Part shown: positions 1,910 through 37,905 of the stretch, in pieces
How the letters are laid out: every line of letters begins with the position of its first letter
Position numbering within the stretch: the first letter of the stretch is position 1
NCBI GenBank assembly: GCA_017429525.1
Contig: JAFROT010000011.1
Coordinates: 1-60,677, forward strand
Direction: 5' to 3'
Length of the DNA stretch: 60,677 bases
Source: Bacteroidaceae bacterium
GTDB taxonomy: Bacteria; Bacteroidota; Bacteroidia; Bacteroidales; Bacteroidaceae
The notes under the pieces: generated by a model
Seen by the model: the letters and a program-made list of their open reading frames with translations, nothing else
Database searches by the model: none
What the model was told of the DNA's origin: nothing
Position numbers and translations under genes: made by a program

Positions 1910-2590
1910 ATGGATAAACTGGAACTCTTGCTCGACATGATCGAGCACCCTGATCGCTACACAGAGCAACAGATCAGCGAACTGCTGGCCGACGAGGAGA
2001 TGCGCAAGCACTATGACGTGATGGTGCGGCTGCGGGGAGCGTATGATGAGAGAAAAGTGAAAAATGAAAGAGTGAACGCTCGGCCCAAAGGGACTCTTGA
2101 CACTTCAAGAAGTGAAAAATATATTTTACCCGAAGAGTCGGATGCAGTTCATGAAGGAAACTCTTATTTCTCACTTTTCACTTTTCACTTTTCACTTAAG
2201 AAGATCGTCGCCATCTTCCTCGCCGCTGCCTTCCTCGGCGGCCTCACATGGGCCATAAGCCCCCTCATACGCCAAAAGGAAAAGGCCCCCCGATCAGCAG
2301 GGGTATCCACTCTCCCCCTTGAGGGGGAGCGGGGAGGGGGTCTTGAGCGGGGAGGGGGTCTTCTCTCCTTCGCCGATGTACGCTTAGACTCCATGCTCAC
2401 CGTTGTTGCAGCCCATTACGGCAAAGCCGTCTTCTTCGGCGACGAAGAGCTGAAGGCGCTGCACATCCACACGAAGTGGAACCGGGAGGACAGCCTCGCG
2501 GCGTTCATCGAGAACCTGAATGAGCTGGACGGACTGAGTCTGACAGAACAGAGAGATACTATCTTCGTACAGAAAGGAGGCGCACAATGA
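1910..2590 (+). CDS. Anti-sigma-like membrane protein carrying two in-frame repeats
   Basis: This 226-residue protein lies between an ECF sigma gene and an outer-membrane barrel gene, overlapping the latter by 4 bases. Residues 1-45 are a charged cytoplasmic segment. A membrane helix lies at about 99-117 (VAIFLAAAFLGGLTWAISPL). The C-terminus (about 155-222) reads like the STN/DUF4974 module at the end of FecR proteins (DSMLTVVAAHYGKAVFF, then HTKWNREDSLAAFIENL). No FecR core domain is visible. Residues about 47-96 and 134-151 are encoded by two dispersed repeat elements that keep the frame (2048-2197 and 2309-2362). It probably restrains the sigma factor at 1417, but this rests on position and topology. 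Confidence 0.75.
   Translation: MDKLELLLDMIEHPDRYTEQQISELLADEEMRKHYDVMVRLRGAYDERKVKNERVNARPKGTLDTSRSEKYILPEESDAVHEGNSYFSLFTFHFSLKKIVAIFLAAAFLGGLTWAISPLIRQKEKAPRSAGVSTLPLEGERGGGLERGGGLLSFADVRLDSMLTVVAAHYGKAVFFGDEELKALHIHTKWNREDSLAAFIENLNELDGLSLTEQRDTIFVQKGGAQ
2048..2197. repeat. Palindromic CACTTTT-type repeat inside a gene
   Basis: The left arm is a purine run of the gagaaaagtgaaaaatgaa type from 2048. The right arm at 2168-2197 is tandem tcactttt. The arms are inverted relative to each other and enclose about 85 bases. Similar simple repeats (ttcactttcaact) occur between genes at 27881-27975. Here the element is translated in frame. Confidence 0.6.
2309..2362. repeat. End fragment of AGACCC...GGGTCT element, in frame
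   Basis: It carries cccccttgagggggagcggg and a doubled gagcggggagggggtctt. The reverse complement matches the left end of the full elements at 12623-12775 and 15077-15216. It is translated as part of the 1910-2590 protein (a Gly/Glu/Leu-rich stretch). Confidence 0.7.
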
Positions 2591-5500
2591 AAACGAAAGT
2601 GATACTCCTTATCATATATATACTATCATCCTGTCCTCTGTCGGCACAGATGACAGCCCTCGCCCAGGCCCTCGCCCGCCTCAACGAGCAGCAAGAGGAT
2701 TGGACGATTACGTTCGTGGCCGACGAACTCCAAGGATTACAGGTGGAGACCTCGGCGTTGCCTGAAGAAGTGGATGTGCCCGAAGCCGTGGAACGACTGA
2801 CGAAAGGACTGCCCGTGCGGGTGAAGGTGAAGAAAGCCCTGCGCCAAATCTATGTGCAGCGCAAGCAAGACAAAGACATGATGAGCATTCACGGCAAAGT
2901 GCTGGACAACATGACTCGTAATGACTTGCCTGGAGCTGTGGTGACATTAATGACACGGGACAGCACCATAATAGATACACGGGAGGCTAAATCCTTTTGG
3001 ATGAATATGGATAACAGCGGCTACACGTCGGACTTCTACTTCGAGGTCCCTCATCGGCAGCAAGCATACATCCTTAAAGCAACTTTCGACGGGCACGACA
3101 CTACATACGTAGATTATAACCTGAGCAACGTTGGCAGGCGTGAGTTCCTGCGCGAACTGCCGCCCATACTGATGCACAAGACCATACGCCATGCGATGCG
3201 CGAGGTGACCGTCACCGCATCGAAGGTGATGTTCTACTATCGCGGCGACACGGTGGTCTATAACGCCGATGCCTTCCAGCTGGCCGAAGGCTCAATGCTC
3301 GATGCGCTGGTGAAACAGCTGCCGGGAGTAGAGCTGAAGGACGGAGGCGAAATCACCGTCAACGGCAAGCGTGTGGAGGCCCTGCTGCTCAACGGAAAAG
3401 ACTTCTTCAGGGGCAATAACCGTGTGATGCTCGAAAACCTGCCGGCCTATACGGTGAAACAGTTAGAAGTTTATGAGAAGTACGGCGACAAGAGTGAATT
3501 CCTCGGGCAGCAACTGGAAAATGACAAGCGCTATGTGATGGACGTGAAGCTGAAGCGGGAATACAGTATCGGATGGCTGGTGAACGCCGAGGCAGGAGGA
3601 GGAACTGCCGACCGCTATCTCGCCCGCCTCTTTGCCATGCGCTTCACCGACCACTCGCGCCTCGCGGCCTACTTCAATGCCAACAACCTGAACGACGGCG
3701 AACGACCGGGCGAAAGCGGTGGCTACACGATGGGAGCAAATCCAGGACAGCAGACGCGACAACAGGGCGGCATCGACTATTTCGCCGAGGAGCGCGACAA
3801 GAAGTGGAAGCTGGAGGGCAACGTCCGCGCCGAACACAAGACGAATGATATGACAACCGTCACGGAGCGCGTGAACTACCTGCCTGGCGGCGACACCCGC
3901 GAGCACAGCCGTTCGGCGACGGAAGACAAGTCCGTCAGCGTGAGCACGTGGAACCAGTTCCAGTACAACTTCCCGAAGGTGCAGCTCCGCGTCAGACCCA
4001 GCTTTGACTATCAACGATGGAACAACCGTTCGCTCTTCCAATCCTCAGCGTGGGACGCCAATGACACCATCATCAACACCAACCTACAGCAAGGCTCGCG
4101 GAGTGGTTATTCCCTGCACCCTAACCTTTCGACCTTCACCGCCGTCAAGTTGGAGGGCAGCAGCGACTATCTGGAATTCGAGAGCGATGCCTGCTACGAC
4201 GTGAAAGCCGACGACCGCTTCAACCGCCAACGCGTGTCCAGCATGTCGCCATACTATGGCGACCAATACTTCAAGGGCCACCCCGACCGCCACGGCAAGT
4301 TCTGGGCACAAGGTATGTACCATTGGACCATCCGCCGTGGCCTCAACCTCGAAACCTACCTCAGCTACGAATACCGCAACACGCAGCGCGAATCCTCGCT
4401 TTTCCTCTTAGACAGAATGGACCGAGCGGACACGCTGGATCTTGGTGTGCTGCCCTCCGTGGCGGAATACGAACGGACAATGGACGCTGCCAACAGCTAC
4501 AATTATCTCCTGACCGAACATTACTACTCCGTGCGGCCATTCCTATGGTGGTTCCCCAAGATGAAGAACGGCCGTTGGAGCATCAGCCAGCGCCTGCCCA
4601 TACGATTGCTCAACCGCACGCTGCACTACCAGCGCGGACAGGTTGATACCGTCATTACGCACCGCACCGTCCTCTTCGACACCGACTACAGCTATGCCGA
4701 GGGACGATGGGAAAACGGGAACGCCCTATTCATCGCCTACCGTCTGAAGGCTGACGCCCCCTCGATGCTAAACTTCGTCAACATACGCGATGCCACCGAC
4801 CCGCTGAACATCACTGAAGGCAACTCCGACCTGCACAACATCTACCGCCACAGCCTCCAGGTGCATCATCAGAAGAACTATAAGAAAAAGCAGATACAGC
4901 TAACAGGTGGATTGGACTTCGTGCTGACACAGAACGCCACGGTCATGAGCCAGCTCTACGACCCAGAGACAGGTGTTAGAACCTACAAGCCCTATAGCAT
5001 CAACGGCAACTGGGAAATCATCGGAGCCTACGGCATCGGCAACCTGCCGATCGACAAACGAGGCCGACTGCGCATCTTCGTCGTGCCGAACGTTGGCTAC
5101 CGCCACAGCGTGGACCTCACGGGCACGACACAGCTGGAACGCAGCACCGTCACCACCACCAGTCTGAACCCGCTGTTCGTCGCCAGATACAGCCTCGGCG
5201 ACCTCGGCAACCTGAAGCTTGACTGCGAACCCAAGTGGCAATGGCTCCACAGCGCCCGCAGCTCCCTCCCTCTTGGGGGAGGGCGGGGGGAGAGGCCGGA
5301 CTTCCACGTGGCCGACTACAAGACCTCGCTCGCCGTGTTGCTGAACCTGCCGTGGAAACTTCAACTATCGACCGACCTGACCTTCAACGCCCGGCGTGGC
5401 TATGCCGACGCCTCGATGAACACCAACGACTGGATGTGGAAGGCACGCCTTGCGCGACCCTTCTTCAAGGGCAACCTCGTCGTGATGCTCGACGGCTATG

Positions 5501-5676
5501 ACCTCCTCGGACAGCAGCGAAGCACCACCAACGTACTCAACGCCCAAGGCCGCATCGAGACATGGACCAACGTCCCGCCCCGCTACGTCCTGCTCCACGC
5601 CGTCTGGCGATTCAACCGCCAACCCATGCGCAAGAGCGAACGGAAACGAGCCCGCGAGGAGAAGAGCAAGCAGTAA
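2587..5676 (+). CDS. Outer-membrane beta-barrel protein with STN and carboxypeptidase-like domains
   Basis: This 1029-residue protein has a signal peptide (MKTKVILLIIYILSSCPLSA), an STN-like domain (about 22-95), a carboxypeptidase-regulatory-like strand domain (SIHGKVLDNMTRNDLPGAVV, about 99-190) and a plug-like segment (DALVKQLPGVELKDGGEITV, then GKDFFRGN, about 205-310). A long barrel rich in aromatic strands fills the rest. It resembles the OMP_b-brl_3 type of TonB-dependent-receptor relatives. With the upstream sigma and anti-sigma-like genes it should be either the signal-receiving outer-membrane partner or the output. Residues encoded by 5262-5295 (SLPLGGGRGER) come from a dispersed repeat read in frame. 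The ligand is unknown. Confidence 0.88.
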   Translation: MKTKVILLIIYILSSCPLSAQMTALAQALARLNEQQEDWTITFVADELQGLQVETSALPEEVDVPEAVERLTKGLPVRVKVKKALRQIYVQRKQDKDMMSIHGKVLDNMTRNDLPGAVVTLMTRDSTIIDTREAKSFWMNMDNSGYTSDFYFEVPHRQQAYILKATFDGHDTTYVDYNLSNVGRREFLRELPPILMHKTIRHAMREVTVTASKVMFYYRGDTVVYNADAFQLAEGSMLDALVKQLPGVELKDGGEITVNGKRVEALLLNGKDFFRGNNRVMLENLPAYTVKQLEVYEKYGDKSEFLGQQLENDKRYVMDVKLKREYSIGWLVNAEAGGGTADRYLARLFAMRFTDHSRLAAYFNANNLNDGERPGESGGYTMGANPGQQTRQQGGIDYFAEERDKKWKLEGNVRAEHKTNDMTTVTERVNYLPGGDTREHSRSATEDKSVSVSTWNQFQYNFPKVQLRVRPSFDYQRWNNRSLFQSSAWDANDTIINTNLQQGSRSGYSLHPNLSTFTAVKLEGSSDYLEFESDACYDVKADDRFNRQRVSSMSPYYGDQYFKGHPDRHGKFWAQGMYHWTIRRGLNLETYLSYEYRNTQRESSLFLLDRMDRADTLDLGVLPSVAEYERTMDAANSYNYLLTEHYYSVRPFLWWFPKMKNGRWSISQRLPIRLLNRTLHYQRGQVDTVITHRTVLFDTDYSYAEGRWENGNALFIAYRLKADAPSMLNFVNIRDATDPLNITEGNSDLHNIYRHSLQVHHQKNYKKKQIQLTGGLDFVLTQNATVMSQLYDPETGVRTYKPYSINGNWEIIGAYGIGNLPIDKRGRLRIFVVPNVGYRHSVDLTGTTQLERSTVTTTSLNPLFVARYSLGDLGNLKLDCEPKWQWLHSARSSLPLGGGRGERPDFHVADYKTSLAVLLNLPWKLQLSTDLTFNARRGYADASMNTNDWMWKARLARPFFKGNLVVMLDGYDLLGQQRSTTNVLNAQGRIETWTNVPPRYVLLHAVWRFNRQPMRKSERKRAREEKSKQ
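5262..5295. repeat. CTCCCTCCC/GGGAGGG palindrome inside a gene
   Basis: ctccctccctcttggggga followed by gggcggggggagagg forms a hairpin related in composition to the elements at 12623 and 15077. It lies in frame within the barrel gene, probably in a surface or periplasmic turn. Confidence 0.6.
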
Positions 5677-6760: not shown

Positions 6761-7027
6761 TTAGTATGCCGCAATCATCTGGTCGAAGGTCACGCTGGGG
6801 GCCGTCACGCCGAAGCCTTCTTTCTTTAGTTTCTGCTTGCGGTGCTGCACGGCAGAGACGGAGATGAGGTAGATGGCAGAGTGGGCGGCGTTGGTCAGCT
6901 TCAGGCGGGTGAGCATACAGAGTCGGAAGTCTTCTTCGGTGAAATTGGGAAACTGGTTGCGCAGGCGGTTGACGAAGCCATTGTCGGCGATGTCCAAGGT
7001 GGATTCTATCTCGCGCCAGCTTAACAT
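6761..7027 (-). pseudogene. C-terminal HTH fragment of a regulator
   Basis: The minus frame from the ATG at 7027 gives 88 residues: a coiled start (LSWREIESTLDIADNGFVNR), then FTEEDFRLCMLTRLKLTNA, then AIYLISVSAVQHRKQKLKK and FGVTAPSVTFDQMIAAY. This matches the C-terminal LuxR-like helix-turn-helix of large Bacteroidales sensor-type regulators with N-terminal TPR and membrane parts. Everything upstream of the HTH is missing, so it is most likely a decayed remnant, although a stand-alone small HTH protein is possible. It lies back to back with the sigma-barrel fusion gene; its start is 22 bases from promoter P1. Confidence 0.5.
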
Positions 7028-7048
7028 GCAAAAAAGAATTGAACTCGT

Positions 7049-7089
7049 GCAGTCTTTTACATGATTATCGGACATAATAAATAGAGACA
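7049..7089 (+). promoter_or_regulatory. Candidate ECF promoter P1
   Basis: GCAGTC (7049-7054), 16 bases, GAC (7071-7073), 3 bases, ATAAATAGAGACA (7077-7089). Spacing and sequence are repeated exactly at 8822 and 9456. The 16-base gap between the first two boxes is typical of ECF sigma promoters. It precedes the sigma-barrel fusion gene, suggesting autoregulation. Confidence 0.65.
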
Positions 7090-7100
7090 TCATGTTTTCG

Positions 7101-8816
7101 ATGGAAGTTACGCAGCTGATAGAACGGTGCAGACAGGGGGATGCGGATGCCCTCGGAGAACTGTACAAAACATACGCCCAACGGATGAGGGGCGTATGCC
7201 GTCGGTTTGTCAGTGACGAACAAACCATCAGCGATGTGTTGCATGACTCCTTCGTGATCATCTTCACCTCTTTTGATAAACTGCGCGATGATAGGAAAGC
7301 AGAGGCATGGATGATGTCGATAACGAGAAATGTCGCGTCGAAATATAAAGACCATCTGGCAAAGATGACCTTTGTACAACTTGAGGATGCAGAGCAATTG
7401 CAGGCGCCAGGAGGTGAGAGCGAAGTGAGAGGTGTTCCGTTGGAGGATGTAATGCAGCTCGTTGACCGTCTGCCAGAAGGTTACGGCCAGGTATTCCGAC
7501 TTTCTGTGTTTGAAGGGTTGTCACATAAGGAGATAGCCAACATGATGGGCATTGAGCCACACTCGTCATCATCACAACTGGCACGGGCGAAGAAGATGCT
7601 GCGCAAGATGATGCAGCGGTATTGGGTAGCCACGCTTCTGTTGCTACTTGTTCCCATTACGTTCTACCTATTCAGGAAAGGAGATAGTGCCGTCAAGGAT
7701 GAAAAGCCAGTTGTGGCCAATCAGAAAGATACAAGGAAAGAATCGAAGAAAGAGCCTCGGACAGATGACGATGGTAAGCAGCAAACGTCGCCACAAAAGC
7801 CTATGATTGTTCATGTTACCAAGCACCATCCTACGATTACTACAACTGATAGCCTTCCATTGCAAATCGCTCAGGCTACGGATTCCACCACGACAGACAC
7901 TTTGTTTAATATGATTGCACAAGAACAGTCAAATACTGACACGATACCGAACGATACATCAAAGACAGTACACGAGTTAGAGATTCCGCATTACGACATC
8001 GCAGACTTCTTACCTCAAAAGCCAGCCACCGGTACACGCCATCAACAAAAATGGTCGGTTGATCTTGCATACGTTGGAGGTTTGGGCGAACAAAATTATA
8101 ATCGTCCTTACGGCTTCACAGAAACACCGATGATAGCCACGACGGGTGAACCACCATCGCCTGTCACCTTTGAGAACTGGAGCGACTATGCGGCTTTCTG
8201 GGCTGAGATGCCAGATGACGGCAGCAGCCATAGCCGGAGCGTAGTTATGAACATTGCACTAAATAATGCCGGAGATGCACCAGGTACAGGCACAGACAAA
8301 ATCGTCCGCAAGAGCCACCACTATATGCCCGTCAACATCTCGTTGGCATTAAAGTACAGACTGAATAATCGCTTTGCACTGGAGACAGGGCTGGGCTACA
8401 GTAGGTTGAAGTCGGAGTTTGAGATGGGTTCAAATGGTAATACCATCAGTGAACAACAGACCATCCACTACCTCGGCATCCCTGTGAAGGGCACCTATAA
8501 TATATATAACAGAAAGGCGTGGAGCCTCTACGGAAGTCTCGGTGTTACCACGGAGATTCCTCTCTACTCGCCGCTCTACACAAGTTACTATTTGCACGGC
8601 ATATTGGAAGATACAGACAACACCACTATTCGTGCTCCATGGCAGTGGTCGGTAGGTACAGGTTTTGGCGTACAATACAATTTCACTCCCAACATCGGAC
8701 TGTTCGCAGAACCAAGCCTGCAATACTTTATCCCGATGCATAGCGACGTCGAGACCTACCGCACTGAGCATCCGTTTACGTTCTCCTTGCCCATAGGCAT
8801 CAGATTTACGTGGTAA
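7101..8816 (+). CDS. ECF sigma factor fused to membrane helix and outer-membrane beta-barrel
   Basis: One continuous frame encodes 571 residues with two normally separate functions. Residues about 5-85 are sigma region 2 (LIERCRQGDADALGELYKTY, DVLHDSFVIIF, EAWMMSITRNVASKY). Residues about 114-170 are region 4 (LVDRLPEGYGQVFRLSVFEG, LSHKEIANMMGI, ARAKKMLRKMM). A membrane helix follows directly (about 174-191, YWVATLLLLLVPITFYLF), then a polar, Lys/Thr/Asp-rich linker of about 120 residues, and a C-terminal barrel (about 316-571) ending in the aromatic beta-signal-like PFTFSLPIGIRFTW. The barrel resembles the OMP_b-brl family. Dual-membrane-spanning anti-sigma factors (Dma) with helix-linker-barrel layout are known from Bacteroides; here the sigma factor itself occupies the cytoplasmic end and no anti-sigma domain is seen. 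ATG 7101 is preferred over 7092 because it gives the same leader length as P2 and P3. Confidence 0.85.
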   Translation: MEVTQLIERCRQGDADALGELYKTYAQRMRGVCRRFVSDEQTISDVLHDSFVIIFTSFDKLRDDRKAEAWMMSITRNVASKYKDHLAKMTFVQLEDAEQLQAPGGESEVRGVPLEDVMQLVDRLPEGYGQVFRLSVFEGLSHKEIANMMGIEPHSSSSQLARAKKMLRKMMQRYWVATLLLLLVPITFYLFRKGDSAVKDEKPVVANQKDTRKESKKEPRTDDDGKQQTSPQKPMIVHVTKHHPTITTTDSLPLQIAQATDSTTTDTLFNMIAQEQSNTDTIPNDTSKTVHELEIPHYDIADFLPQKPATGTRHQQKWSVDLAYVGGLGEQNYNRPYGFTETPMIATTGEPPSPVTFENWSDYAAFWAEMPDDGSSHSRSVVMNIALNNAGDAPGTGTDKIVRKSHHYMPVNISLALKYRLNNRFALETGLGYSRLKSEFEMGSNGNTISEQQTIHYLGIPVKGTYNIYNRKAWSLYGSLGVTTEIPLYSPLYTSYYLHGILEDTDNTTIRAPWQWSVGTGFGVQYNFTPNIGLFAEPSLQYFIPMHSDVETYRTEHPFTFSLPIGIRFTW

Positions 8817-8821
8817 TTGGA

Positions 8822-8862
8822 GCAGTCTTTTTAACGATTTGGGGACTATATAAATAGAGACA
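8822..8862 (+). promoter_or_regulatory. Candidate ECF promoter P2
   Basis: GCAGTC (8822-8827), 16 bases, GAC (8844-8846), 3 bases, ATAAATAGAGACA (8850-8862), identical in spacing to P1. It starts 6 bases after the stop of the fusion gene and drives the lipoprotein gene. Confidence 0.65.
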
Positions 8863-8872
8863 ACCCTTTTAA

Positions 8873-9442
8873 ATGCAAATGAACATGAAGCATTACAAGC
8901 CCCTTGCCTGGATGATGGCGATAGCCATTGCCATGCTTTCCCTGCTGCTGACAGCCTGCAGCAATGATGACGAAACGGTTAACGTCAGCGAAGACAATCA
9001 AAATGAACCAATGGCGGAACTATGCGCATACGGTGTCATGCCAACAGAAACTAGAGGTGCCCACGGTGCCATATTTACCGACGATGACATCGAATGGTTC
9101 GACCTTAACACCCGTGAACTGCGCTTCCGAGATACGATGGAGCCACTGCGTGAGGAAATCCCGTTGCTTGCAGGGATAGACATCTATCTCGACGGCGAAT
9201 ATATCTTTTCCTGTGGGGTCACCTTCGTCAGCCTCATCTGCAGCCAAATGTTTGATGACCTCGTACTCTGCTGCGGAAAAATCGACGGCGAGGTCATTGA
9301 CGATGGTCACTACTATCTCTATGACTGCTATCCGGCCCAATTCATTGATGACGAACGTGTAAAAGCCAACCGCCTTCGTCGCGCTTCGCAATGGGAGGCG
9401 TTCTTGAAATATCTGGAGAGCAAAGGTAAACTAAGAAAATAA
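8873..9442 (+). CDS. Cysteine-rich lipoprotein of unknown function
   Basis: This 189-residue protein has a long hydrophobic signal segment and a lipobox ending LLLTAC (Cys29), so it should be an envelope lipoprotein. An Asp/Glu/Asn-rich spacer is followed by a globular part with FTDDDIEWFDLNTRELRFRD and six further cysteines (51, 114, 123, 133, 134, 152), unusual for a Bacteroidales lipoprotein. I do not recognise the family. It is preceded by promoter P2 and directly follows the sigma-barrel fusion, so it may be a ligand, sensor partner or output of that factor. In-frame ATGs at 8879 and 8885 are alternative starts. Confidence 0.8.
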   Translation: MQMNMKHYKPLAWMMAIAIAMLSLLLTACSNDDETVNVSEDNQNEPMAELCAYGVMPTETRGAHGAIFTDDDIEWFDLNTRELRFRDTMEPLREEIPLLAGIDIYLDGEYIFSCGVTFVSLICSQMFDDLVLCCGKIDGEVIDDGHYYLYDCYPAQFIDDERVKANRLRRASQWEAFLKYLESKGKLRK

Positions 9443-9455
9443 CCTTCCGCCCCGT

Positions 9456-9496
9456 GCAGTCATTCGTTGCAGTTTCAGACTTTATAAGTAGAAACT
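9456..9496 (+). promoter_or_regulatory. Candidate ECF promoter P3
   Basis: GCAGTC (9456-9461), 16 bases, GAC (9478-9480), 3 bases, ATAAGTAGAAACT (9484-9496). Spacing equals P1 and P2, with three changes in the last box. It drives the radical SAM gene with about the same leader length. Confidence 0.55.
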
Positions 9497-9505
9497 GCAA
9501 CGAAT
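9462..9505. repeat. Perfect 15-bp inverted repeat overlapping P3
   Basis: ATTCGTTGCAGTTTC (9462-9476) and GAAACTGCAACGAAT (9491-9505) pair perfectly around a 14-base loop that contains the GAC box and the TATAAGTA. The right arm is followed by ttttta, so the RNA hairpin could end transcription from the lipoprotein gene, or the DNA palindrome could be an operator. Confidence 0.75.
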
Positions 9506-9509
9506 TTTT

Positions 9510-10565
9510 ATGTACACGATTTACGATTATGCCTACAATGGGCTACTCTATCTGAACAACATCATGCGACCGCGTCACAAGCGCCTGTCGCAACTGATGA
9601 TTTACTCGACAACAGCCTGCCAGTCACAATGCAAGCATTGTAATATCTGGCAGAAGCCAGTGGAACACCTATCACTCGAAGCCATCAAGCGAATCATGCA
9701 GAACCGATGTGTCACCAAACGAACAATCGTAGGACTGGAGGGTGGCGAGTTTATCCTCCACCCACAAGCAGCGGAAATTATGGCGTGGTTCCGCAAGCAT
9801 CACCCTAACTACACGCTGTTGTCTAATTGTCTCGCGCCCCGTCGTGTCATAGATGCCGTCCGTCTCTATCAGCCACGGCACTTGTACGTCTCTCTCGACG
9901 GAGGTCGGGAGACTTACTTGAGGATGCGAGGGCGTGACGGCTATGACAGGGTGATTCAAGTGGTGGAGGCATTGAAGGACGAGGTACCGCTGTCGTTGAT
10001 GTTCTGCCTGTCACCCTGGAACAGTTTCGATGACATGGCCTTCGTCATCGACATTGCCCAACATTATGGCGTTGACGTTCGCATCGGCATCTACGGAACG
10101 ATGGCCTTTTTCGACACGACAAGCGAACTGCTGACGGCAACGGACTTCATGAAGCAGATTCCCCAAAGCATCCACCAGACACAGGAGAACTACGACTTTG
10201 TGGCACTCTATGACCAATGGCGCAACGGACATCTACGCCTGCGCTGCCAAAGCATCATGAGTAGTATCGTCATCCACAGCAACGGTGATGTGCCGCTCTG
10301 CCAGAATCTCGATGTTATGTTGGGGAACATCCATGAGCAATCGCTTGACGAGATTTTCAATGGAGTGTCAGCCAGCCAGACACAATGCCATTATTCCAAG
10401 AACTGCAACGGTTGCTGGATTAACTTCCACCGCAAATACGACATCATCCTCCTACGAAACTTCGAGCGCCTTCTGCCGAAGTGGCTCATCGAGAAGTTCT
10501 ACGGCCCATATCAGTGGACGGAAGACCCGCGCATAACCTATCACCAATATTTCAAGAATTTATGA
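9510..10565 (+). CDS. Radical SAM/SPASM-type enzyme
   Basis: This 351-residue protein carries the radical SAM cluster motif CQSQCKHC (CxxxCxxC, about residues 37-44), the EGGE glycine motif (GLEGGEFILHP) and a C-terminal cysteine set (CQNLDVMLGN, then CHYSKNCNGCW) typical of SPASM or twitch auxiliary clusters. Such enzymes bind SAM and 4Fe-4S clusters and often modify peptides, sugars or cofactors; the substrate here is unknown. Its stop overlaps the start of an oxidoreductase gene, so the two are co-translated and probably act in one pathway. It sits behind candidate promoter P3. It is unrelated in detail to the second radical SAM gene at 26800. Confidence 0.88.
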   Translation: MYTIYDYAYNGLLYLNNIMRPRHKRLSQLMIYSTTACQSQCKHCNIWQKPVEHLSLEAIKRIMQNRCVTKRTIVGLEGGEFILHPQAAEIMAWFRKHHPNYTLLSNCLAPRRVIDAVRLYQPRHLYVSLDGGRETYLRMRGRDGYDRVIQVVEALKDEVPLSLMFCLSPWNSFDDMAFVIDIAQHYGVDVRIGIYGTMAFFDTTSELLTATDFMKQIPQSIHQTQENYDFVALYDQWRNGHLRLRCQSIMSSIVIHSNGDVPLCQNLDVMLGNIHEQSLDEIFNGVSASQTQCHYSKNCNGCWINFHRKYDIILLRNFERLLPKWLIEKFYGPYQWTEDPRITYHQYFKNL

Positions 10566-11674
10566 TACAGCAATTGATAGACCGCTACAAACGCCTCCGC
10601 ACCGAGCGTTTCCTTGCACAAACGTACCATCATTCTTATGCCTTCGTCGGCATGGGGCAACACTCGCTCACCAACCTCTATCCCGTGATTCACTATCTCG
10701 GCGTGCCGTTGAAATACATCTGCGTCACATCGGAGAGGAAAGCGCGACTGATAGAACGGAAGTTTCCCCATGTGAAAGCCACCACCTCGCTCAGCACGAT
10801 ATTGACCGATAATGACGTGAAAGGCATATTTGTTGCTGCTGCACCCTCTGCTCACTTCTCCATCGCCTCGCAAGTCCTGAAAAGCGGAAAGTCATTGTTC
10901 ATTGAGAAACCGCCCTGCCAAACACTCCAGGAACTTGATGCACTTATAGAACAGCAGCAACTTTATGGCATTCCCGAGCATCGCTCGCCCATTCCCGAGC
11001 AAAGCTCGCCTACCCGTAGCCATTCCCGTAGCCATTTACCTGTCGCTATGGTTGGCCTACAAAAACGCTATGCCCCTGCCGTGCAAATCCTTCAAAAACG
11101 TCTGTGCAAAGAGCATCTTATCAGTTATGATCTTCATTATCTAACGGGGGCATATCCAGAGGGCAACGCCTTGCTCGACCTTTACATCCATCCCCTCGAC
11201 CTCGTTACCTATCTCTTTGGCAAGCCCGAAATCATAGCCTGCCAGCAAATCGCCTCTGCGTCCTATATCCTCATGCTCCGTCATACTCACATCGTCGGTA
11301 CCCTCGAACTATCCACTCTCTACAGCTGGACATCTGCCGAGGAATCCCTCAAAGTCTGTACGTCTAAAGGAATTTACCGCCTCTCTCAGATGGAGCTGCT
11401 GACCTTCGAGCCAAAGTCCTCCTCCCTCCTTGGTATCCCCTATGAGAAAGTCCACAAGCATAACAAAACCATCGAACAACTTTATACTCGTAACACCTTT
11501 ACTCCCACACTTCCCAACAATCAAATCTATTCGCAAGGTTACTACAGTGAGATACACTCCTTCATAACATCTATTGAGCTCGGCCATTCAAACACCCTCA
11601 CTAATATTACAACAATTAAACCGACTTACGAAGTCTTGATGAGAATAAAGGACTTATTTGCAAAATCCAGTTGA
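10562..11674 (+). CDS. Gfo/Idh/MocA-like oxidoreductase
   Basis: This 370-residue protein has the Gfo/Idh/MocA pattern: an N-terminal nucleotide-binding part (YAFVGMGQHSLTNLYPVIHY, TSLSTILTDNDVKGIFVAAA, PSAHFSIASQVLKSGKSLFI, then EKPPC) and a substrate domain with LLDLYIHPLDLVTYLFG. The EKPPC motif corresponds to the family EKP. It should reduce or oxidise a sugar-like substrate with NAD(P). The open frame extends upstream, but the ATG at 10562 overlaps the radical SAM stop (ATGA), indicating translational coupling. Residues about 137-159 (PEHRSPIPEQSSPTRSHSRS) are encoded by a repeat insertion between conserved segments. No promoter was seen between the two genes. Confidence 0.82.
   Translation: MIQQLIDRYKRLRTERFLAQTYHHSYAFVGMGQHSLTNLYPVIHYLGVPLKYICVTSERKARLIERKFPHVKATTSLSTILTDNDVKGIFVAAAPSAHFSIASQVLKSGKSLFIEKPPCQTLQELDALIEQQQLYGIPEHRSPIPEQSSPTRSHSRSHLPVAMVGLQKRYAPAVQILQKRLCKEHLISYDLHYLTGAYPEGNALLDLYIHPLDLVTYLFGKPEIIACQQIASASYILMLRHTHIVGTLELSTLYSWTSAEESLKVCTSKGIYRLSQMELLTFEPKSSSLLGIPYEKVHKHNKTIEQLYTRNTFTPTLPNNQIYSQGYYSEIHSFITSIELGHSNTLTNITTIKPTYEVLMRIKDLFAKSS
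10969..11037. repeat. Low-complexity hairpin repeat inside the oxidoreductase gene
   Basis: Repeated cattcccgagc units form small hairpins (cgagcatcgctcg, cgagcaaagctcg), then two cccgtagccatt units follow. The stretch is in frame and codes for a Pro/Ser/Arg-rich loop. Related gctcg-rich sequence lies at 27903-27931. Confidence 0.6.
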
Positions 11675-11998
11675 CATACGATCAAAATGCAGAGTATATC
11701 ATGGCTTTCATCATTGACGGGAGGGAACTCTGGTATGCTGAGCAATTTCTATAAGCATAAATAGTGGACTCCAACATCTATAACAGGCTTGCCATGATAT
11801 GGTACACTCCAATCAAACGAAATGAGGTTAGGGTATTAGGCTACCCTAGTCTTGAAAAATGTGGCATCGGTAAACCGATTATACAGACTTGATCTTATCC
11901 TCTGTTGACGCGGCGGGGTTTATCGAATAAAGGCCCACCCCCGAATCCGGGAGTGGGCCTTTCCTCCTCTCCACGACGGGAGGGGTTGGGGTAGTTTT
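11675..11998. other. Intergenic region between convergent operons
   Basis: No coding sequence is supported. It contains a small AGGGTA/TACCCT hairpin, a lone GACGCGGCGGGGT terminator arm (11907-11919), a bidirectional terminator (11929-11962) and a ggaggggttgggg stretch related to the GGGAGGG repeats. Confidence 0.6.
11929..11962. terminator. Bidirectional terminator
   Basis: AAAGGCCCACCCCCG and CGGGAGTGGGCCTTT pair around a short loop, with A-rich left and T-rich right flanks. It separates the oxidoreductase gene (plus) from rnfA (minus). Confidence 0.85.
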
Positions 11999-12616
11999 TT
12001 AGAGACCGAATACTTTGGCGAGACCACCGTCAACGCCGCCGAAGCCCATGAAGGCCATGGCCAGCAGACCGGCGGTAACGAGGGCAATGGGCATGCCCTG
12101 CATTCCCTTGGGAATGTCCATCATGGCAAGTTGCTCGCGGATGGCAGCAAAGATGGTGAGGGCGAGACCAAAGCCGAGAGCCGTGCTGACGGCATAGACA
12201 ACACCTGTGAGCAGATTGGGCTCGAGACCTTGTGCGTTGTAGGTACCCTGTGCCACGAGGATGGCTACACCGAGGATGCAGCAGTTGGTCGTAATAAGGG
12301 GCAGGAAGACGCCGAGTGCCTGGTACAAGGCCGGCGACACTTTCTTCAACACAATCTCCACCATCTGCACGAGGGCAGCGATGACGAGGATGAAGGCGAT
12401 GGTCTGCAAGTAAACGAGATCATACTTGACGAGCAAGATCTGAATGAGATAGGTGACAATCGTGGCTATGGTAAGCACGAAAGCAACGGCTGCGGACATG
12501 CCGAGGGCGGTGTCCACTTTCTTCGACACACCGAGGAACGGGCAGATTCCGAGGAACTGCGAGAAGACGATGTTGTTGACGAAGATGGCCGAGAAGAAAA
12601 TTAATAGATAAGCCAT
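11999..12616 (-). CDS. rnfA: Rnf electron transport complex subunit A
   Basis: This 205-residue polytopic membrane protein opens with AYLLIFFSAIFVNNIVFSQF and carries GICPFLGVSKK, the signature region of RnfA/NqrE subunits. RnfA and RnfE form the inverted-topology membrane pair that carries electrons between the two faces of the membrane. It is the last gene of rseC-rnfBCDGEA. A 153-bp repeat element fills the gap to rnfE, and a terminator follows. Assignment to Rnf rather than Nqr follows from the RnfB and RnfC sequences in the same operon. Confidence 0.96.
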   Translation of the reverse strand: MAYLLIFFSAIFVNNIVFSQFLGICPFLGVSKKVDTALGMSAAVAFVLTIATIVTYLIQILLVKYDLVYLQTIAFILVIAALVQMVEIVLKKVSPALYQALGVFLPLITTNCCILGVAILVAQGTYNAQGLEPNLLTGVVYAVSTALGFGLALTIFAAIREQLAMMDIPKGMQGMPIALVTAGLLAMAFMGFGGVDGGLAKVFGL

Positions 12617-37377: not shown

Positions 37378-37905
37378 ATGCAACTCAAGCCATCTGTCAT
37401 CGCTGACTTCAAAGCCGGACGCCTCGACACGTTCTATGCCGAAGCCTATGCCGACCTCCTCACCTTTGCTGCACGGCAGCTGGGCGAGAGCCATGCACTG
37501 ATGGCCGAGGACGTCGTGCAGGAGGTTATCTTTCAGTCGTATCAACGCCGTGCGGGCATTAGCGACAGTGCGCAGTGGAAAGCTTTCCTCTTCCGGAGCA
37601 TACACAACGCAGCAGTAAGCATCAGGCGCAAGCACGCTTCGGAACAACGATACCTGAACCAACACAGAGAAGATGCTGAGGATTTCGAACACAGCATCGT
37701 GGAGCAAGAGACGCTCGAATGTCTGTTCGACGCCATCGACGCGCTGCCCGAACGCTACCGACGCATCTTTGACCTCAGCTTCGAAAAAGGCCTACGGAAT
37801 ACCGAGGTGGCCGAACTGCTGAACGTGAGCACGCGCGCCGTGACGAAGCAAAAAGCGCGCATGATAGAGCTCGTGGAGAAGCACATGCGCAAGCAATCCG
37901 AATAG
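37378..37905 (+). CDS. ECF RNA polymerase sigma factor (FecI-like)
   Basis: This 175-residue sigma factor has region 2 at about residues 15-85 (FYAEAYADLLTFAARQLGES, DVVQEVIFQSYQ, WKAFLFRSIHNAAVSIRRKH) and region 4 at about 115-170 (LPERYRRIFDLSFEKGLRNT, EVAELLNVSTRAVTKQKARM). It is divergent from the thioredoxin-fecR-susC-susD operon and should activate it when released by FecR, the standard FecI/FecR arrangement of Bacteroidales. A GCCCCTGC/GCAGGGGC hairpin (37942-37975) follows the gene. Confidence 0.94.
   Translation: MQLKPSVIADFKAGRLDTFYAEAYADLLTFAARQLGESHALMAEDVVQEVIFQSYQRRAGISDSAQWKAFLFRSIHNAAVSIRRKHASEQRYLNQHREDAEDFEHSIVEQETLECLFDAIDALPERYRRIFDLSFEKGLRNTEVAELLNVSTRAVTKQKARMIELVEKHMRKQSE

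Follow-up and report, generated by a model that had tools for sequence, protein, structure and literature searches.

The closest described counterpart of the protein analysed here is Dma3 of Bacteroides thetaiotaomicron (bt_2778-2779), a Dma protein which carries its own N-terminal sigma domain and whose role is described as unknown in the accessible part of a recent report (PMC13088901, 2026, citing Pardue et al., 2024); according to the same text, the dma3 locus rises upon deletion of dma1 or dma2. In the accessible part of PMC10434189, BT2778 is annotated as a member of the sigma-70 family, has a value near 2.3 in the iron tables and is present in B. thetaiotaomicron only, among the species compared, and nothing on Dma3 was found in the accessible portions of PMC12596196 and PMC12045153. 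The helix, disordered tether and C-terminal barrel of Dma1 and Dma2 are all present in the fusion protein described below, which bears out the kinship with Dma proteins proposed in an initial annotation of this DNA; the difference lies at the N-terminus, where Dma1 and Dma2 have an anti-sigma domain of their own, together with a separate ECF21 sigma gene, and the fusion has a sigma domain instead. As a kind of merger it is not new, the layout being already published for Dma3 (accessible part of PMC13088901). The fusion is a well-conserved member of the Dma3 kind, and the merger itself was already known.

In the window, the whole analysed stretch of 60,677 nucleotides, a single frame at 7101-8816 of the forward strand is translated without a stop into 571 residues (Table 1). 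An alternative in-frame ATG is found at 7092, 9 nt 5' of this start, and the start at 7101 is favoured because three relatives (L045, L054 and L055) have no in-frame ATG at the position of 7092. Pfam matches to Sigma70_r2 (residues 21-82), Sigma70_r4_2 (115-167) and OMP_b-brl_2 (408-532) all exceed the curated cut-offs, sigma regions 2 and 4 are also matched by NCBIfam, and the PDB profile matches are of the SigW, SigE and AlgU type. Immediately 3' of region 4 lies a 17-residue segment (from residue 175) with a mean hydropathy of 2.23, and neither an anti-sigma domain nor a remnant of one is seen between region 4 and the helix in any of the 29 aligned fusions, as had been proposed. The AlphaFold model of the fusion (65 sequences; mean pLDDT only 65.1) consists of helices at residues 2-88 and 114-192 and of strands between 318 and 570 that we take for the roughly eight strands of a barrel. 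Its pLDDT is mostly 70-89 in region 2, 69-93 in the barrel from residue 401 on, about 54-61 in the first barrel strand and below 50 in the linker (193-315), and region 4 and its joint with the helix are poorly modelled (only 45-64). In Foldseek searches the sigma side matched sigma-E, AlgU and mycobacterial ECF factors, and the barrel side matched the OmpA, OmpX, NspA and OprF barrels. The structure prediction advised by the initial annotation returns a sigma fold and an OmpA-like barrel, with region 4 at low confidence, and the proposed succession of sigma factor, helix, linker and barrel in one protein is confirmed by the unbroken frame, the Pfam domains and the like architecture of 77/80 relatives.

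Table 1. Features of the fusion locus, in positions of the window.
Feature	Position	Strand	Basis
Promoter-like site 1, before the fusion gene; upstream part GTGCAGTC, downstream part GGACAT	7047..7077	+	motif match at 7049
ECF sigma domain, residues 1-173, regions 2 and 4	7101..7619	+	Pfam/NCBIfam, PDB profile matches, Foldseek; omega 0.11
Single membrane helix with proline, residues 174-193	7620..7679	+	hydropathy; Pro counts across fusion helices
Polar disordered linker, residues 194-315	7680..8045	+	AlphaFold pLDDT < 50
Outer-membrane barrel, residues 316-571, about 8 strands, terminal Trp	8046..8816 (stop codon included)	+	Pfam, AlphaFold, Foldseek
Promoter-like site 2, before the lipoprotein gene	8820..8850	+	exact match at 8822
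Small predicted lipoprotein, no PDB fold match at E <= 0.001	8873..9442	+	ORF; Cys29 invariant across 21 aligned sequences
Promoter-like site 3, before the radical-SAM gene	9454..9484	+	match at 9456, 3 mismatches
Inverted repeat with arms of 15 nt that enclose the downstream half of site 3; its end is 4 nt from the rSAM ATG	9462..9505	+	sequence, folding, covariation
Radical-SAM/SPASM (rSAM) enzyme gene	9510..10565	+	PF04055 3.5e-14, PF13186 1.4e-08
Gfo/Idh/MocA-type oxidoreductase gene, overlaps the rSAM frame, start uncertain	10481..11674	+	PF01408 8.2e-12

The most hydrophobic segment lies 19-22 residues past an HSSSSQL motif in 77 of the 80 fetched relatives, and the linker measures 102-141 residues (median 118) across 74 fusion sequences. 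Net charge is higher before the helix than after it in 77/77 fusions, which fits a cytoplasmic sigma domain, and we infer that the helix is placed in the inner membrane and the barrel in the outer membrane. The last barrel strand is highly conserved (0.95) and ends in Trp in 77/77 close relatives, 38/38 sequences of the genus set and 17/21 of the family set (the others being three Tyr and one Arg). The barrel also has a long first outer loop (approximately residues 327-401), in which an NWxDYA motif is kept among close relatives, suggesting a specific role of this loop. Between regions 2 and 4, the sigma domain varies in sequence, with a mean majority frequency of 0.63.

No stop or frameshift, which the initial annotation had named as a finding that would refute the fusion, lies between region 4 and the helix, and the domain fusion that it proposed to seek in other Bacteroidales genomes is found in all three principal sets, which share genomes, so that counts summed over them contain duplicates. 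A fusion relative is encoded by 429 of the 454 candidate stretches from genome contigs; the best 80 were kept, all under Bacteroidales names and many with titles that point to deer, goat, sheep, yak or buffalo or to the rumen. The frame is unbroken across sigma domain and barrel in 77 of these 80, the exceptions being one that stops at codon 11 (L106) and two not parsed as a whole frame (L109 and L128), and 4 of the 77 have no ATG at the aligned start position. A spanning fusion is present in 35/139 genus genomes (a hand count, with G008 excluded since its locus, L081, has separate genes), and 38 of the 40 loci read, window included, are unbroken, L084 having an in-frame TAG and L081 the separate genes. 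The family sample contains it in 70/301 genomes and 16/30 genera (hand count), as 62 single spanning matches, among which G050 and G285 contain an internal stop and G088 and G220 are without the N-terminal end, and as 8 two-piece matches within one frame length (G135, G146, G356, G296, G270, G362, G403 and G257), of which the seven fetched, all except G257, read as a single frame. Three single-contig genomes (G143, G280 and G786) carry the fusion. At E <= 1e-70, four of the 295 genomes of the order sample match, namely the window's own, G140, in which the frame ends after 228 residues, G525, with separate pieces, and G636, with a fusion. Pooled over 89 pairs of 80-95% identity, which share species and are thus non-independent, omega is 0.11 in the sigma domain, 0.13 in the barrel and 0.18 in the helix; in the linker it is 0.36 and reaches about 1 in some individual pairs.

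Internal stops in the fusion genes of L084 (G050), G209, G285 and L106 perhaps mark decaying copies. In the pairs L095/L098, L120/L122 and L122/L139, dS is 0.02-0.03 for the barrel versus 0.34-0.50 for the sigma domain, the pair L094/L095 has a dS of 0.01 in the linker versus 0.28 in the barrel, and L059 clusters with L057 by its sigma domain and with L076 by its barrel. Such contrasts in dS, and the grouping of L059, suggest a mosaic evolution in which parts would have been exchanged between species.

No separate sigma gene adjoins the fusion; the only other sigma match of the contig at E <= 0.001, which is ECF-like and 28% identical, is located at 37465-37896. The genome of the window also has a Das/Dma-type pair (L002), in which sigma factor and helix-linker-barrel protein are encoded by two genes; the barrel there is 38% identical. 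Across 22 such separate-pair loci, the sigma gene is followed by an adjacent or overlapping gene that encodes mostly about 45-75 residues before the helix, then linker and barrel, and judged from these layouts the fusion looks like a Das/Dma pair in which a sigma domain replaces the anti-sigma part. Another motif, TGTAAT ... GTGTATA, which may be the promoter of these genes, recurs upstream of several of the separate sigma genes (in L177-L184). On the tree of sigma domains, those of the fusions are separated from the two Das groups, and on the tree of barrels, those of the fusions join one of two Dma groups; the origin of the fusion takes three changes on the sigma tree and two on the barrel tree, and a single origin is possible.

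In many loci of the window's clade, the genes for the fusion, the lipoprotein, the rSAM/SPASM enzyme and the Gfo/Idh oxidoreductase follow each other in that order. The lipoprotein has no Pfam family above the cut-off, and its model (pLDDT 76) no PDB match at E <= 0.001; conserved stretches of its family surround WF..NTRE and LYDCYP. Counting loci with at least 2.5 kb downstream, in the three overlapping sets (80-locus, genus and family), a same-strand rSAM gene follows the fusion in 49/59, 15/32 and 6/20 loci and a same-strand methyltransferase gene, by Pfam, in 0/59, 5/32 and 11/20, the two never occurring together; 10, 12 and 3 loci (25/111 summed) have neither on the same strand. In L065, L073 and L074, where both same-strand targets are missing, a methyltransferase-like gene directly follows the fusion on the opposite strand. 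Among the 139 genus genomes, 28 have the rSAM gene at E <= 1e-80, 23 of them with the fusion. Two of the five without it (G075 and G092) have contigs that end just upstream, with the motif described below still there, and in the three with a continuing contig (G131, G134 and G138) this motif is absent. On the other side of the fusion, the window holds a large OMP_b-brl_3 outer-membrane protein (2587-5676); the genes of this and of an HU-like protein, both located upstream in the window, served as probes and matched nothing at E <= 1e-4 among the loci fetched. A search of 158 genomes of one large-genome genus found 13 that match the fusion at E <= 1e-60. The methyltransferase neighbour in L219, L222 and L223, which come from a large-genome genus other than that of the window and were read without L217, L218 and L224-L226 (other strand), may represent the arrangement of the B. 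thetaiotaomicron dma3 locus.

A bipartite promoter-like motif, first spotted by eye upstream of the fusion and of the next gene, has three matches in the window at up to 3 mismatches, compared with a mean of 0.10 in shuffled sequences. At up to 4 mismatches it is found near -54 of the fusion start in 64/75 loci and within 130 nt 3' of the fusion stop in 68/77, the window being included in both. Exact TGCAGTCTTT occurs within 150 nt 5' of the fusion in 72/75 loci of the 80-locus set, 35/37 of the genus set and 11/21 of the family set, and GCAGTCNTT within 120 nt 5' of the rSAM start in 75/87. The whole assembly has 7 matches at up to 3 mismatches (the window's 3 included, the other 4 at chance level) versus 7 for the reversed control, so that the claim rests on position and on the relatives. 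At up to 1 mismatch, the 139 genus genomes contain 27 sites in 23 genomes, and the reversed pattern one site; all but two (G076:C91 and G027:C91, the latter preceding a broken rSAM gene close to a contig end) of these 27 flank a fusion gene or fragment, and of the approximately 39 genus genomes that hold a fusion or a fragment of one, only 21 possess such a site. A general scan of 7000-12000 for sigma-70-like sites (13; 7.0 expected, sd 2.7) and terminator-like sites (4; 4.3 expected) was uninformative. Literature searches, the wording of which did not cover the motif or the hairpin, found no published report of the motif, the targets or the hairpin.

Distant fusions often retain the upstream half, TGCAGTCTTT, and vary in the downstream half, among the forms of which are GGACTATA, GTATCTATA, CTCCTT and TTATCAT. 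Within a locus, the downstream halves of paired promoters agree at 8.74 of 14 positions versus 6.82 when loci are shuffled (0/5000 as high), a figure computed for the 23 of 44 loci that have both sites and inflated by relatedness; with one locus for each of six clades the values are 8.42 versus 6.59 (descriptive). Downstream halves that are alike within a locus and unlike between clades fit one sigma factor per locus that reads both sites, and the sigma domain, being accompanied by a promoter-like motif specific to its locus, appears to be active.

The third site differs from the others in its surroundings, as its downstream half is enclosed by the arms ATTCGTTGCAGTTTC (9462-9476) and GAAACTGCAACGAAT (9491-9505). 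The rSAM leader RNA of the window folds with -27.3 kcal/mol (z -8.4) and a partly paired start codon, and the leaders of the window's fusion and lipoprotein genes gain nothing over shuffled sequences (z 0.38 and 0.79, respectively). The longest perfect repeat, measured in each of the 47 distinct rSAM leaders, has a mean length of 10.96 versus 4.87 after shuffling. A fixed 13-nt arm pairs with the tail of its own leader at 11.94 of 13 positions on average (at least 11 in 40/47), as compared with 10.62 for swapped tails (0/2000 as high) and 9.10 for shuffled tails; seven leaders, distant clades among them, pair at fewer than 11 positions. Covariation was counted in 27 of the 47 leaders, hand-chosen with near-copies left out and with the long-loop L050, L093, L153 and L164, the shortened L085 and the distant L192, L195, L205, L206 and L209 also omitted; 9 of the 13 hairpin pairs show changes on both sides that keep the pairing, a number attained in none of 500 shuffles, and sliding the partner arm breaks the covariation. 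In the four long-loop leaders, the kept arms are separated by roughly 20 to 60 additional nt. Upstream of the rSAM gene in L235 (G138), there is neither motif nor 5' arm, but a 3'-arm-like piece, TTACAACGAA, is left ahead of the ATG, which looks like the outcome of a loss of the promoter half. A hairpin at all three promoters was considered and is not supported, lipoprotein leaders having no excess of inverted repeats (4.54 vs 4.68); fusion leaders have a small one (4.92 vs 4.35; at least 7 nt in 11% vs 3.8%), and 12 methyltransferase leaders are intermediate (5.92 vs 5.02). If transcription started just after the GGAC half, the sigma-started RNA would be without the 5' arm and only read-through RNA would fold; the hairpin could thus block read-through rSAM RNA, and a role at the DNA level instead is possible.

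Starting from the architecture, the conservation, the placement of the motif and the covariation of the hairpin, we consider it somewhat probable that the fusion is a Dma3-type trans-envelope sigma factor, with the barrel as sensor and a sigma domain that is probably cut free at the helix and drives its own locus. The barrel would fold in the outer membrane, inserting there while the helix is already fixed in the inner one, as is assumed from Dma; the linker would cross the periplasm, and the helix would keep the sigma domain at the inner face of the inner membrane, with region 4 so close against the membrane that, as we propose, the domain stays idle. Linker or helix would become exposed to proteases through an event at the outer membrane, be it a ligand that reaches the long first loop or a barrel that fails to fold, and intramembrane cleavage at the helix would liberate the sigma domain. 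Together with RNA polymerase, the free sigma domain would read sites like GTGCAGTCTTT-N12-GGACTATA, driving its own gene in positive feedback as well as the lipoprotein gene and the rSAM/SPASM and oxidoreductase pair or, in other clades, the methyltransferase gene. At the rSAM promoter within the hairpin, read-through RNA would be blocked and sigma-started RNA, beginning in the loop, would be free. Helix-breaking residues favour intramembrane proteases, and Pro occurs in the central 15 helix residues of 116/135 fusions (overlapping sets; L203 dropped for its weak helix) versus 3/21 Dma helices, with a split between close (73/77) and diverse fusions (only 19/34). The window's genome has one clear M50 (RseP/S2P-type) protease, a family also found in 14/14 control genomes, and proline and protease together are suggestive of an intramembrane release of the sigma domain. 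Possible, if somewhat doubtful, is the fullest version, in which one protein would contain the complete relay, command a private regulon of about three own-locus promoters and hold a hairpin-locked target that is translated from sigma-started mRNA only.

Release may not be required if the tethered sigma domain recruits RNA polymerase at the inner membrane, in the manner of ToxR and CadC, membrane regulators that act while membrane-bound. The modest share of diverse fusions with a helix proline is in keeping with such an activator, as is the variable stretch between regions 2 and 4, which could be flexible; however, hardly any residues separate region 4 from the helix in nearly all of the relatives read, which is tight for a DNA-bound region 4, and we regard activation without cleavage as unlikely. 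Distinctly unlikely is a monitor of barrel assembly that has no ligand, in which failed insertion of the barrel would route the protein to envelope proteases. The C-terminal Trp of all close relatives, the conserved last strand and the rise of the B. thetaiotaomicron dma3 locus upon deletion of dma1 or dma2 (accessible part of PMC13088901) speak for it, but the three predicted targets are not chaperone or barrel-assembly genes by Pfam, and the NWxDYA motif is kept in the long first loop of close relatives.

The sigma domain might also be an inactive relic that only anchors the protein or titrates partners while another sigma factor reads the motif, and the genome does have 14 further sigma-like matches at E <= 0.001. 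Such a relic is very improbable, given the low omega of the sigma domain, a near-exact motif that is almost confined to fusion loci and absent where the fusion is absent, and the variation of this motif by clade despite its match within a locus. That two genes were joined by an error of sequencing or assembly can be rejected: the source assembly is incomplete (56 contigs, 86.5% complete), but 77/80 relatives are unbroken, three single-contig genomes carry the fusion, pooled dN/dS is low, and an identical layout is published as Dma3 (accessible part of PMC13088901).

As a Dma3-type sigma factor that is probably released at its helix, the fusion would let a single protein carry a signal all the way from outer membrane to promoter, a minimal path encoded in many Prevotella-like ruminant genomes, and would illustrate the conversion of a sigma/anti-sigma pair into one polypeptide in which the tether replaces inhibition. 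The Pro-sigma-K of Bacillus subtilis is likewise a membrane-associated sigma factor freed by an intramembrane protease; it differs in having an N-terminal prosequence and no outer-membrane part, and no homology to the fusion is claimed. For the rSAM leader alone, an analogy may be drawn with gene e of phage T4 and similar late genes, in which the promoter lies within a hairpin, the early mRNA is blocked and only locally started mRNA is translatable. Compared with Dma3 of B. thetaiotaomicron, which is set alike according to the accessible part of the published description (PMC13088901), the fusion has in common the N-terminal sigma domain within a Dma protein and the lack of an adjacent separate sigma gene, and differs in its predicted targets, which in the window are the lipoprotein and the rSAM/oxidoreductase pair; the predicted local circuit is what is added here, and its conservation, promoter motif, target genes and hairpin make Dma3 open to test as a circuit.
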